From Prochlorococcus sp. RS04 (GTDB lineage: Bacteria > Cyanobacteriota > Cyanobacteriia > PCC-6307 > Cyanobiaceae): a stretch of DNA of 64,000 nucleotides. Within the stretch, counting starts at the first letter, position 1; every line of letters starts with the position of its first letter. Positions 34,443 to 36,971 of the stretch are shown in pieces. The position numbers were made by a program, and so were the translations under genes. Where the stretch lies: NCBI RefSeq assembly GCF_001989455.1, contig NZ_CP018346.1:496001-560000 (forward strand). Direction: 5' to 3'. The notes beneath the pieces are model-generated. The model had not been told where the DNA came from. It saw only the letters and a list, made by a program, of their open reading frames with translations, and ran no database searches.

Positions 34443-34515
34443 GCCGGGATAGCTCAGTTGGTAGAGCAGGCGACTGAAAATCGCCGTGTCCCCAGTTCAA
34501 ATCTGGGTCCTGGCA
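34443..34515 (+). tRNA. tRNA-Phe (GAA anticodon)
   Basis: A 73-nt cloverleaf: GCCGGGATAGCTCAGTTGG start, anticodon loop ACTGAAAAT (anticodon GAA), T-arm CCCAGTTCAAATCTGGG, acceptor end TCCTGGCA. Its last 20 bases plus the following terminator are repeated 2.4 kb downstream, marking it as the integration site of the adjacent element. Confidence 0.97.
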
Positions 34516-34523
34516 CCTTTAAA
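34496..34523 (+). repeat. left attachment-site candidate (attL) in tRNA-Phe
   Basis: These 28 bases, from the T-loop of tRNA-Phe through its 3' end and just beyond, are identical to 36865-36892. Beyond them both copies continue, with a one-base indel, into the same CCCTGTC...GACAGGGTTTT hairpin. A 3'-terminal tRNA duplication is the classic footprint of tyrosine-recombinase integration. Confidence 0.85.
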
Positions 34524-34544
34524 CCCTGTCTATGACAGGGTTTT
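34521..34544 (+). terminator. terminator hairpin after tRNA-Phe
   Basis: A perfect stem, AAACCCTGTC (34521-34530) with GACAGGGTTT (34534-34543), around a three-base loop and ending in TTTT. It probably ends the tRNA transcript; a near-identical copy follows the right attachment site. Confidence 0.8.
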
Positions 34545-34557
34545 AACGTTTTTAGAG

Positions 34558-34579
34558 ATGGAGTACACATGGAGTACAC
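34558..34579 (+). repeat. tandem 11-bp repeats, candidate integrase arm sites (left)
   Basis: Two perfect adjacent copies of ATGGAGTACAC (34558-34568, 34569-34579) begin 35 bases inside the left attachment repeat. The same motif clusters near the right end, which fits recombinase arm-type binding sites. Confidence 0.65.
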
Positions 34580-34639
34580 TTATTTTTGTTAAATTGCTTA
34601 TTCAAGAAAAATAAGTATAATGCTTAAAAAAAATTATAA

Positions 34640-36454
34640 GTGGAAAATTTTGATGAGTTATCTGAAGAAGTTTTAATTAGAAAAGCGAAGGAGGAAATAG
34701 GTTTAGAAAATTATGCTAATGCATTAATAATATTTTCAAAGATCTTAGAGTTAAATCCTAAAAACGTAAGTGTATTAATATGGAAAGCAAAATTACACAA
34801 TAATATAGGTGATTATCAAGGTGCTATTGATAGTTATTCTGAGTTAATTAAATTAGTTCCACATAATGAAAGCATTTGGAATTTGAGAGGTGATGCCAAA
34901 GAGAAAATTGCGGATTATAAAGGAGCAATAAATGACTGGTCAGAAGGAATTAAATTAGATCCTGATAATTTTCAAAGGGCAATAAATGTATTTTCAAAAG
35001 AAATTAAATTAAATCCGGATAATCCTGTTTTATTTCTACTTAGGGGTAATGTTAAATATTATTCAGAAGATTTTAATGGAGCAATAAATGACTATTATCA
35101 AGCAGTCAAATTAAATCAAAAGGCAATTGATAATATAAATTTTGAAAATTTATATTCTTTAATCTATGACTGGTCAGAAGTCGGAGCAGTGGATCCGAAA
35201 ATAATAGATGTTACTGATAGATCAACTAGAAAAAAGTTTGCAGAATTATTTGCACTTTCTGGTGATAAAAAAAATGAAATTGGAGATTTCAACGGTTATT
35301 ATCAAGATTATGAAGTTGCGACGAGGTTCAGCGATTATAAAATTTTTAGAAGTTCTAAAAAATATCTTACAAAAGAACACGAGAAAAAAGTCCGTGAAAA
35401 TATTTCAAGATTTTCTTTGAGTATTTTAAAAAATCCCCAAAATAAAGAAGCACTTATTAGTAGAGCAGAAGCAAAGTTGAGTTTATATGATTATGAAGGT
35501 GCAAAAAATGACTATTCACAAGTAATTAAATTAGATCCCAAAAATAAAATAGCATTTTTGAATAGAGCAGAATTAAAGTGGAGTTTATGTGATTTTCAAA
35601 GTGCTTTAAATGACTATTCACAAGTAATTAAAATAGATCCTGAAGATAAAATTAGTTGGATTTTGAGAGGTGATCGCAGATCTGTATATGATGATTTTCA
35701 AGGTGCTATTAGTGACTATTCACAAGCAATTAAATTAGATCCTGAAGATAGTGTTTCATTTTTAAATCGATGTGAGACAAAGATCGAAATAGATGATTTT
35801 GAAAGCGCAATTGATGATTATTATCAATCAGTAAAATTAGATCCAAAAAGTGAGAAAGCAAACCATTTAGATATAATAAAAAATTTATTTTATAAACTTA
35901 ATGATCAAAATATAGATCAAAGATTAAAAGTGAAAATTGAAAGAATTTTTTTCAATTTGGGATTAATTAAATACAAAATTGGTAAGTATGAAGACGCAAT
36001 TTATCATTATTCAAAGTCAATCGAAATGAATACGTCGAATTTTAATTCATTAATAAATAGGGGATTAGCAAAAGAAAAACTTGAATATTGGGAGCGTGCA
36101 AATAATGACTACTTAAAGGCAAAAAAAATAAATCCTAAAAATCAAATGGTGATAAAAAAATTATCAAAACTTAAAAATAAATTTGATAATCATTCAGCAT
36201 CAAAAACTAATAATAAAAAATTAAAAAAATTAGGATTTAATAATAAAAGGAGTTTAGGTTCAAGAAATTTCAAAAGATTAAATGTAGATGAATACAAGCA
36301 AATAATGGATAGTTATGATTTGAACTTGAGTCTTGAAAAAAAAAATTATTACTCTAACAAACTTATTAGAGATGACTTAAATATAGTATTGAGGATTTTA
36401 TCGCCATTTATTATTTTGTTATTAATATCCGCCTTTCTTATCATAGTTTTTTGA
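34640..36454 (+). CDS. tail-anchored TPR-repeat protein
   Basis: A 604-residue protein starting at GTG with tandem tetratricopeptide repeats, typically of the form A-x-x-D-Y-S-x-[AV]-I-K-L-D-P (for example GAISDYSQAIKLDPEDSVSF). Repeats are regular at about 10-170, 270-420 and 435-510, with a degenerate or recombined stretch between (one repeat is shortened near residue 115). The C-terminus has a Lys/Asn-rich linker and one membrane helix (IVLRILSPFIILLLISAFLI) that ends the protein, so the TPR array faces the cytoplasm. TPRs bind other proteins; the partner is unknown. It is the only cargo of the tRNA-Phe element and is very A+T rich. Confidence 0.85.
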   Translation: MENFDELSEEVLIRKAKEEIGLENYANALIIFSKILELNPKNVSVLIWKAKLHNNIGDYQGAIDSYSELIKLVPHNESIWNLRGDAKEKIADYKGAINDWSEGIKLDPDNFQRAINVFSKEIKLNPDNPVLFLLRGNVKYYSEDFNGAINDYYQAVKLNQKAIDNINFENLYSLIYDWSEVGAVDPKIIDVTDRSTRKKFAELFALSGDKKNEIGDFNGYYQDYEVATRFSDYKIFRSSKKYLTKEHEKKVRENISRFSLSILKNPQNKEALISRAEAKLSLYDYEGAKNDYSQVIKLDPKNKIAFLNRAELKWSLCDFQSALNDYSQVIKIDPEDKISWILRGDRRSVYDDFQGAISDYSQAIKLDPEDSVSFLNRCETKIEIDDFESAIDDYYQSVKLDPKSEKANHLDIIKNLFYKLNDQNIDQRLKVKIERIFFNLGLIKYKIGKYEDAIYHYSKSIEMNTSNFNSLINRGLAKEKLEYWERANNDYLKAKKINPKNQMVIKKLSKLKNKFDNHSASKTNNKKLKKLGFNNKRSLGSRNFKRLNVDEYKQIMDSYDLNLSLEKKNYYSNKLIRDDLNIVLRILSPFIILLLISAFLIIVF

Positions 36455-36864
36455 ATAATTTTTGTATTTATAGCACTTTTAGCATAAGAAAAAATTTTTT
36501 CAAAAGAAATCTGCTTTCATATATAACTTTGTGTAAACCCTTATTCATTTTTGATATAAAATTCTTATCGATACTCTTCATCCATTCATCCAACGGGTTT
36601 AGGTGATGAGGTCATTAAGGATACTTTGAAGGGATAATTTAAAGAGACTTATATTTTAACAATGTCTTAAGTCTAGATTATAAATTCAATTAAAATTATT
36701 TTTGGATATTTTTTCTCTAAACAATGTACTCCATTTAGAATCTAAGAGAAAGAAGAAAAATTGATGTGGAACAGATGCAAATGGAGTACACCGAATGGAG
36801 TACGCAATATTCAAATCTTCAACAACCTGCTCTATAACAAAATTTTAATACCTTAAAAACCTAA
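36455..36864. other. non-coding right arm of the tRNA-Phe element
   Basis: About 410 bases without a credible gene on either strand; open frames are short and lack a coherent composition. The stretch carries the three right-hand ATGGAGTAC motifs (36726-36734 inverted, 36781-36791 and 36795-36805 direct) and leads into the right attachment repeat. Confidence 0.6.
36726..36805 (+). repeat. 11-bp repeat cluster, candidate integrase arm sites (right)
   Basis: GTACTCCAT at 36726-36734 is an inverted copy of ATGGAGTAC. ATGGAGTACAC at 36781-36791 is a perfect match to the left repeats, and ATGGAGTACGC at 36795-36805 differs by one base. The cluster ends 59 bases before the right attachment repeat. 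Confidence 0.65.
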
Positions 36865-36914
36865 TTCAAATCTGGGTCCTGGCACCTTTAAAACCCTGTC
36901 CTAGACAGGGTTTT
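36865..36914 (+). repeat. right attachment-site candidate (attR): tRNA-Phe 3' fragment plus terminator
   Basis: 28 bases are identical to 34496-34523, followed by a copy of the CCCTGTC...GACAGGGTTTT hairpin with a different three-base loop and one inserted A. The upstream three quarters of the tRNA is missing, so this is a tRNA fragment and not a gene. Confidence 0.85.
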
Positions 36915-36971
36915 ATACTTTTAAATCATTGAGAACTCGTTATTTTTCGTATTTTTTATAACTTTAAATTT

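Follow-up and report, generated by a model that had tools for sequence, protein, structure and literature searches.

How did a short segment of DNA that encodes no integrase come to lie at the end of a tRNA gene, between two copies of that tRNA end, and which enzyme could move it? The question arises at the tRNA-Phe (gaa) gene that ARAGORN places on the forward strand at 34443-34517 of the window, i.e. the 64,000 nucleotides of the Prochlorococcus sp. RS04 genome analysed here. The last 22 bases of this putative integration target form, together with the adjoining TTTAAA, a 28-bp sequence (TTCAAATCTGGGTCCTGGCACCTTTAAA, 34496-34523, +) that recurs identically at 36865-36892 (+). We read the two copies as the left and right att cores of a 2369-bp element, the left one providing the tRNA gene with an element-supplied 3' end and the right one being the displaced original 3' end. 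The initial annotation had described 28 identical bp followed by one indel, which holds, as a single A is inserted directly after the right core, ahead of the second terminator hairpin, whereas the tRNA part of the repeat comprises 22 bases and not 20. The first terminator-like hairpin (inverted repeat I11, 34518-34549, +) is read as element-borne and the second (I23, 36889-36915, +) as native, a near-identical sequence being located directly 3' of the tRNA in an empty site of a relative (L219); they appear to be two distinct terminators.

Just inside the cores are clusters of an 11-bp repeat. At the left, two exact copies of ATGGAGTACAC follow each other with a period of 11 (34558-34568 and 34569-34579, both +). 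At the right, an exact copy (36781-36791, +) and a copy with one mismatch (36795-36805, +) are arranged with a period of 14, and an inverted copy, also with one mismatch, is positioned about 55 bp inside this direct pair (36724-36734, -). The att cores are thus flanked by repeat clusters with the geometry of recombinase arm-type sites, as initially proposed. The single gene between them (34640-36454, +) has a GTG start and encodes a 604-aa TPR protein (TPR_2 profile, E=5e-41) with a C-terminal segment judged by eye to be hydrophobic, and two recombinase profiles gave no match within the element, in agreement with the annotation of one TPR gene and no integrase. We consider it likely (roughly 78%) that the element is an integrase-less passenger at the 3' end of tRNA-Phe, which would be bound at its arms and mobilised in trans by a tyrosine recombinase of a divergent family.

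The repeat is concentrated in the element. Five matches to ATGGAGTACAC with at most one mismatch are found in the window, whereas 100 shuffles average 0.36 matches and never reach five. The whole genome (one contig of 1,656,222 bp) contains 13 such matches, five in the element and eight elsewhere, and 14 matches to a reversed control pattern. As all three exact copies in the genome lie within the element, together with five of the 13 matches, the motif is not scattered at similar density. The motif pair is present in 5 of 266 genomes of the genus and, among the matches listed, all five pairs are at tRNA-Phe.

Empty sites with a single tRNA end, expected from the initial annotation, are frequent in relatives: 68 of 80 tRNA-Phe loci are empty, with the next gene beginning 81-98 bp 3' of the tRNA, 10 are occupied as defined by a second att, one is probably occupied (L087, which runs off its contig end) and one is uninformative (L064, a contig without the tRNA). 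Among the 79 loci that were chosen regardless of occupancy 10 or 11 are occupied and an integrase was seen in none of those, which implies that surveys based on integrases would miss much of the gene traffic. Prochlorococcus is a very abundant photosynthetic organism. Using tblastn with 15 ordinary tyrosine recombinases, which we read as tycheposon-type, we detected none in the 80 loci, and profile A2, built from the same 15 proteins, gave no match in 27 element sequences. In a non-random sample of 26 two-ended elements (10 from one search, the others chosen for the motif, a second att match or an integrase match) 23 lack an integrase, two carry a broken one and one an intact one: the profile of the divergent integrase family, applied to these 26 and the partial L087, matched only L217 (intact), L204 (one in-frame stop) and L237 (a fragment).

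At the level of sequence, these elements share one end plan, in which the repeat varies by class and agrees between the two ends of the same element. The end-pair test covered the 23 of 26 elements that are longer than 600 bp, three shorter ones being left out, and in 18 of them a 9-mer of the left tandem pair agrees with one of the right pair at 8 or more positions; none of 20,000 permutations reached the observed sum. Of 506 comparisons between different elements 128 also reach 8 shared positions because the arm classes have several members. Tandem pairs were found in 36 of 750 interior windows, none of which shares its pair with a second window, and 19 of 23 elements have an inverted copy in their right end, as compared to 18 of 680 interior windows. 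The plan extends to tRNA-Cys, where the left pair matches the right one in seven of nine fetched two-ended elements and the integrase family is present in none of the 10 elements fetched (from at least 17 two-copy genomes, of which three others are known integrase carriers and four have no listed coordinates).

The mover probably belongs to a divergent family of tyrosine recombinases encoded at tRNA-Phe or tRNA-Cys. Genes of this family adjoin a tandem pair as well as an end resembling that of tRNA-Phe or tRNA-Cys in all nine listed genomes of the genus that have the family and, in a wider search, in 18 of 21 loci (both judged by eye), the repeats being located at the integrase-proximal end of the carriers. 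Arm and integrase sequences covary in a set of 24 integrases (Mantel r 0.56 for the N-terminus and 0.48 for the rest, both p=0.0001; L204, L235, L236, L237, L257, L265 and L266 excluded, four arm strings put in register manually, and a distance of +3 added where periods differ), a covariation that could arise from shared descent alone and that is inflated by near-identical integrases. We also considered that the element is a passenger whose repeats are bound by a directionality factor or regulator instead of the recombinase. The direct, tandem and differently spaced copies (period 11 at the left and 14 at the right in the window) would be compatible with such sites, the arm role being deduced from sequence patterns, but integrase-less elements carry the repeats at either end, carriers have them at the end next to the integrase, and the repeats vary with the integrase sequence, making this alternative unlikely.

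Likewise, the mover might be encoded elsewhere in the same chromosome, by the gene for a 389-aa tyrosine recombinase at 357.5 kb. A 389-aa match is present in many of the genus genomes listed, a PF00589 match of some kind occurs in at least 85 of 87 near-complete genomes, and a single-mismatch motif is positioned at 359.3 kb, 1.4 kb beyond the gene. This recombinase, however, does not track the arms: over 11 genomes, its N-termini are 88-98% identical between genomes with different arms when G119 is left out, whereas those of the host genome (G000) and G119, which have the same arms, are 76% identical. Moreover, exact ATGGAGTAC is absent from the 16 kb around this gene, as it is from the 16 kb around the recombinase at 1,414 kb, and the repeats adjoin genes of the divergent family instead. 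We therefore disfavour the 389-aa protein and regard its being the mover as very improbable.

Regarding the divergent family, integrase-bearing elements at the same tRNA were found as anticipated, but none has exact ATGGAGTACAC arms, the nearest being ATGTAGTAC and TGCAGTACA with 7 of 8 bases. For ten of the 23 integrase-less tRNA-Phe elements, an integrase carrier with an exactly matching 8-base arm exists at the same tRNA (a raw count from hand-entered arms, without chance control), and 13, including all five of the window's class, have no 8/8 match. L081, which lacks an integrase, and L217, which has one, correspond in their ends: the right ends are 93% identical over 133 bp and the left ends 81% over 145 bp, and blastn gives no match between their interiors. 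Between the window element and the carrier L204, the left ends match over 62 bp (82%), and the match at the right is confined to the 23-bp att end.

Integrase-less elements have evidently moved, as those of the GGAATGTTAG class are far more alike inside than their host flanks: in nine of ten compared pairs the interiors are 82.5-94.3% identical and the flanks 67.2-76.4%. In all, four of 14 pairs (L019/L201, L034/L239, L201/L206 and L217/L237) speak against transfer in this comparison, which lists only pairs with a match of at least 200 bp, and the one pair of the window's own class (L014/L132) shows 86.0% inside and 81.5 and 84.0% in the flanks. These data bear on the possibility that the element is a dead relic, i.e. 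what deletion has left of a formerly autonomous element, which is without its integrase and by now only decaying or passed on vertically. Such derivatives would be CIME-like. CIMEs are ICEs or IMEs that have decayed and that move in tandem when another element comes in, according to the available part of the source (PMC5704250), and like them the window element has kept attL and attR and lacks integration and transfer genes. The broken integrases in L204 and L237 demonstrate that loss by decay occurs, minimal forms of 142-252 bp exist (L051, L207, L068 and, at tRNA-Cys, L280), and no integrase of the family was found in the host genome among the matches listed. Yet 23 of the 26 elements have no integrase remnant at E 0.01, the window element among them, while matched end pairs are kept in 18 of 23, the members of the nine integrase-less pairs resemble each other far more than their host flanks do, and by blastn the window element shares only its ends with L014, L133 and L132, save for a 94-bp stretch near the right end with L132. 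We thus find a relic improbable; in contrast to CIMEs, the matched end repeats, the small cargo and the transfer seen in one class point to passengers moving on their own ends.

The recombinase family itself seems to be known already. Flamholz, Biller and Kelly (2023) described a picocyanobacterial integrase (cluster158946) at tRNA-Phe and tRNA-Cys that is distinct from tycheposon integrases, and their preprint states that the movement of the elements is not yet known (PMC10187409). The divergent family is apparently theirs, judging from shared traits: both occur in Prochlorococcus and relatives, at tRNA-Phe and tRNA-Cys, both are tyrosine recombinases missed by sequence profiles, and a serine recombinase can be located near the integrase, here in L217. 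The window element has the tRNA-Phe location and no family integrase, either in itself or, among the matches listed, in G000; it and 22 other two-ended elements differ from the described system in lacking one, and att duplications, arm repeats and integrase-less passengers do not feature in the available part of that description (PMC10187409). The initial suggestion of a passenger of a tycheposon-like system stands as regards a passenger with integrase-bearing relatives, mobilisation in trans being deduced; the recombinases at these sites, however, are divergent and not of the ordinary type of other Prochlorococcus islands. Tycheposons are likewise cargo elements at tRNA genes in Prochlorococcus, but as far as the source extends they measure 4-200 kb and carry a tyrosine recombinase (PMC10872708), in contrast to 2369 bp without one, and the tRNA-Phe/Cys family is distinct from theirs (PMC10187409). 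Dependence on an enzyme encoded elsewhere is shared with MITEs and CALINs, which, in the portion of the source at hand, use transposases and integron integrases, respectively (PMC11389934), whereas the passengers described here would use a tRNA-targeted tyrosine recombinase.

We propose that the 2.37-kb passenger, made up of two att cores, a set of arm-type sites at either end and a single cargo gene, owes its insertion, and would owe any excision, to a tyrosine recombinase of the divergent family that a related integrase-bearing element provides in trans. The tandem repeats would be bound by the N-terminal arm-binding domain of the recombinase, the copies inside either end being direct and the one some 54-58 bp deeper on the right being inverted. 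Each recombinase would read its own repeat, so that a passenger would answer only to matching enzymes, and the window copy would await its cognate enzyme. Specific att and arm sites can be named from this end plan, which also predicts the integrases to which each passenger should respond. More tentatively, and with slightly less than an even chance in our estimation, many one- or few-gene elements at tRNA-Phe and tRNA-Cys would form a population-wide system with private arm-site codes, moved between picocyanobacteria, even across genera, by rarer integrase-bearing elements that read the codes. In effect, it would be akin to integron cassettes, but scattered and based on tRNA genes.

A viral source was considered and set aside. 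The 20 of 104 listed phage records that match the element DNA do so over the tRNA end, mostly in annotated tRNA genes. The cargo protein matches three phage records with 22-23% identity. A defence role of the cargo was also discarded: among 10 cargo proteins one, the TPR protein of L014, gave a TPR-model match at 5e-6, and the matches of two others reached no better than 0.006. As regards packaging in virions, as in a phage satellite or VEIME, IMG/VR yielded no match to the exact Phe att, the motif pair or integrase relatives, and hence no circle or attP was seen there. Two related arm patterns occur in the viral search on one contig each (L286 and L287) and the tRNA-Cys end on three (L288-L290), none of the five matching the divergent integrase family. 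L286 is a phage-like contig with one GGAATGTTAG pair, for which we have no explanation. L288 and L290 match ordinary recombinases, the match in L288 being located directly beside its tRNA-Cys.

The host genome, a single contig of 1,656,222 bp with an estimated completeness of 100%, carries 2369 bp 3' of tRNA-Phe (34443-34517) that close with a second copy of the tRNA 3' end, the att core being 28 bp long. Two ATGGAGTACAC repeats are located at the left end, 40 bp past the tRNA, and two direct copies and one inverted copy precede the right core. All three exact genomic copies of ATGGAGTACAC lie within the element; at up to one mismatch 8 copies occur elsewhere in the chromosome, compared to 14 for a reversed control pattern. 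The element's only cargo gene specifies a TPR protein of 604 aa that ends in a hydrophobic tail. TPR cargo recurs in two other fetched elements, L014 and L081, spanning two arm classes, and a DUF2130 protein is present in both L014 and L132.

Using the conserved kinase gene upstream of tRNA-Phe we gathered 80 loci (79 Prochlorococcus, 1 Synechococcaceae). Sixty-eight are empty, the next conserved gene beginning 81-98 bp past the tRNA, and 10 contain a second att copy at a distance of 125 bp to 7.6 kb. L087 is probably occupied as its contig ends before the downstream gene and a repeat pair is visible by eye; the contig of L064 stops short of the tRNA. Thus, the segment is not fixed in relatives, and the empty sites with a single tRNA end that had been predicted do exist.

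Additional loci from genus genomes brought the total to 26 distinct two-ended elements. Depending on the class, the distance from the tRNA to the left-end direct copies is 40-51 or 94-154 bases; right-end direct copies begin 123-71 bases ahead of the right core, and an inverted copy lies 54-58 bases further inward in 19 of the 23 elements longer than 600 bp, with none at one mismatch in L210, L217, L237 and L066. Two elements deviate from this plan, L066 (right pair absent) and L036 (three att copies). In L036 (11319-12632) the tRNA-Phe end occurs three times in a row, which suggests two elements or remnants in tandem. Grouped by repeat, ATGGAGTACAC is shared by the window element, L014, L132, L133 and L051, TGCAGTACA by L015, L043 and L204, GGTATGTAAG by L019, L201 and L207, GGAATGTTAG by L034, L068, L202, L205, L206, L239, L241 and L242, GGTATGGAAG by L036 and L203, and GGTATGGAAC by L081, L210 and L217; GGAATGGTAC is found in L237 and a single ATGTAGTAC-like copy in L066.

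A script searching tandem 9-mers at each end of the 23 elements independently returned matching left and right pairs in 18, and none of 20,000 permutations reached the observed sum of left-right matches. Matches also occurred in 128 of 506 cross-element comparisons because the classes hold several members, and in an interior control 36 of 750 windows contained any tandem pair, with 0 matching a second window. Matching failed for L036, L066, L133, L201 and L241. Minimal forms of 142-252 bp (L051, L207 and L068 at tRNA-Phe, L280 at tRNA-Cys) consist of two att cores enclosing either one arm pair or just a single arm and are apparently collapsed elements.

An integrase-bearing element, or carrier, at tRNA-Phe is L217 (genome G182, 5.3 kb), in which a 513-aa protein adjoins the right end and which also contains a serine resolvase. 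Neither this protein nor the L204 piece had a Pfam match, four family members gave no match better than E 0.03 in NCBIfam and PHROGs, and a family profile search of PDB sequences yielded none at E 1. The alignment of this divergent family conserves arginine, lysine, R-H and tyrosine in that order, and its comparison with 15 ordinary tyrosine recombinases gave a probability of 83.6% (E 8e-6). Relatives are present in at least 9 of 266 genus genomes, five at tRNA-Phe (G182 and G034 intact, G137 split over two contigs, G134 damaged by one stop, G215 a fragment) and four at tRNA-Cys (G086, G158, G238, and G053, assigned from end sequence alone); by eye, a tandem pair adjoins the att end in 9/9. 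A wider search found matches in at least 39 of 400 genomes and at least 14 of 59 genera. Among 21 loci inspected by eye (20 from other genera, 1 from G137), 18 have a period-11 tandem pair preceding a tRNA-like end (8 tRNA-Phe-like, 10 tRNA-Cys-like) and L257, L265 and L266 have none. The Phe-targeting members cluster in a tree built from 24 integrases, whose sequences also covary with those of their arms.

On common traits we take this family to be that of Flamholz, Biller and Kelly, whose paper describes a novel integrase upstream of tRNA-Phe/tRNA-Cys in Prochlorococcus and Synechococcus, often with a small serine recombinase nearby, distinct from tycheposon integrases and of a mechanism given as not yet known (PMC10187409). 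A non-exhaustive literature search, covering portions of its sources, returned no account, for this family, of arm repeats or of passengers lacking an integrase (PMC10872708, PMC11389934, PMC12416821, PMC10803314, PMC11481560, PMC5704250, PMC10187409).

Some carriers and integrase-less passengers share ends. L081, with its TPR gene and no integrase, and the carrier L217 are 93% identical over 133 bp at the right end and 81% over 145 bp at the left, with no blastn match between their interiors. Both ends are likewise common to L210 and L217 (72-75% identity), and to L015 and L043 versus L204, whose integrase is broken (72-84%). In a table of 8-base arms compiled by hand without a chance control, 10 of 23 integrase-less tRNA-Phe elements (L015, L043, L019, L201, L207, L036, L203, L081, L210, L066) and 4 of 9 tRNA-Cys elements (L277, L278, L283, L285) match a carrier at the same tRNA in 8 of 8 positions, the carrier for L019, L201 and L207 being L256 from another genus. 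No such match was found in this table for the window class (5) or the GGAATGTTAG class (8). The expected carriers at tRNA-Phe were recovered, but not with the same motif: the best arms for the window element agree in 7 of 8 positions (L238, L204), the right-arm period being 14 in all three. The window motif pair occurs in five genomes, none of which is among the nine where a family integrase was matched, many genomes being incomplete.

Interior and flank identities were compared for 14 element pairs sharing at least 200 bp. Within the GGAATGTTAG class (L034, L205, L239, L241, L242) interiors are 82.5-94.3% identical in 9 of 10 pairs, compared to flanks of 68.9-75.2% upstream and 67.2-76.4% downstream (downstream match in 5/9). 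The tenth pair, L034/L239, shows the opposite (interior 80.4%, flanks 88.7 and 89.1%), as do L019/L201, L201/L206 and L217/L237; for L014/L132 of the window class the values, 86.0% versus 81.5 and 84.0%, favour neither direction. Similar interiors with dissimilar flanks from 60 bp outward fit site-specific transfer, a pattern shown by one class, which is not that of the window element.

Lambda integrase bridges arm repeats and att cores. From the sequences and distributions observed here we infer binding, joining and excision by analogy: a matching recombinase would most likely bridge att cores and arm repeats and join the passenger circle onto the tRNA end, the passenger restoring the tRNA 3' end and supplying its own terminator, and excision would need the same enzyme plus probably a directionality factor. 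No divergent-family integrase is among the matches listed for the host genome, and the window element should therefore stay put until one arrives. The host also has a weakly matching tyrosine recombinase with a 437-aa open frame (G000 C1:1414312; L135:7746-8915), followed by a gene that by eye resembles part of a DNA ligase.

Of 239 genus genomes, 17 contain two copies of the tRNA-Cys end. Ten of these two-copy genomes, chosen from those without a known integrase, were fetched, and 0/10 loci contain a divergent-family integrase. Matching pairs occur at both ends of 7 of 9 two-ended elements (not L276 and L282), and the 197-bp minimal form L280 has the same arms as L281 from a different genome. 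One phage-like IMG/VR contig, with neither a tRNA nor a recombinase match, has a GGAATGTTAG tandem pair close to its start (L286:1977-1998) and may be a chimera or contain captured DNA. In another IMG/VR contig, of 67% G+C, an ordinary tyrosine recombinase directly adjoins tRNA-Cys (L288:9784-9854).
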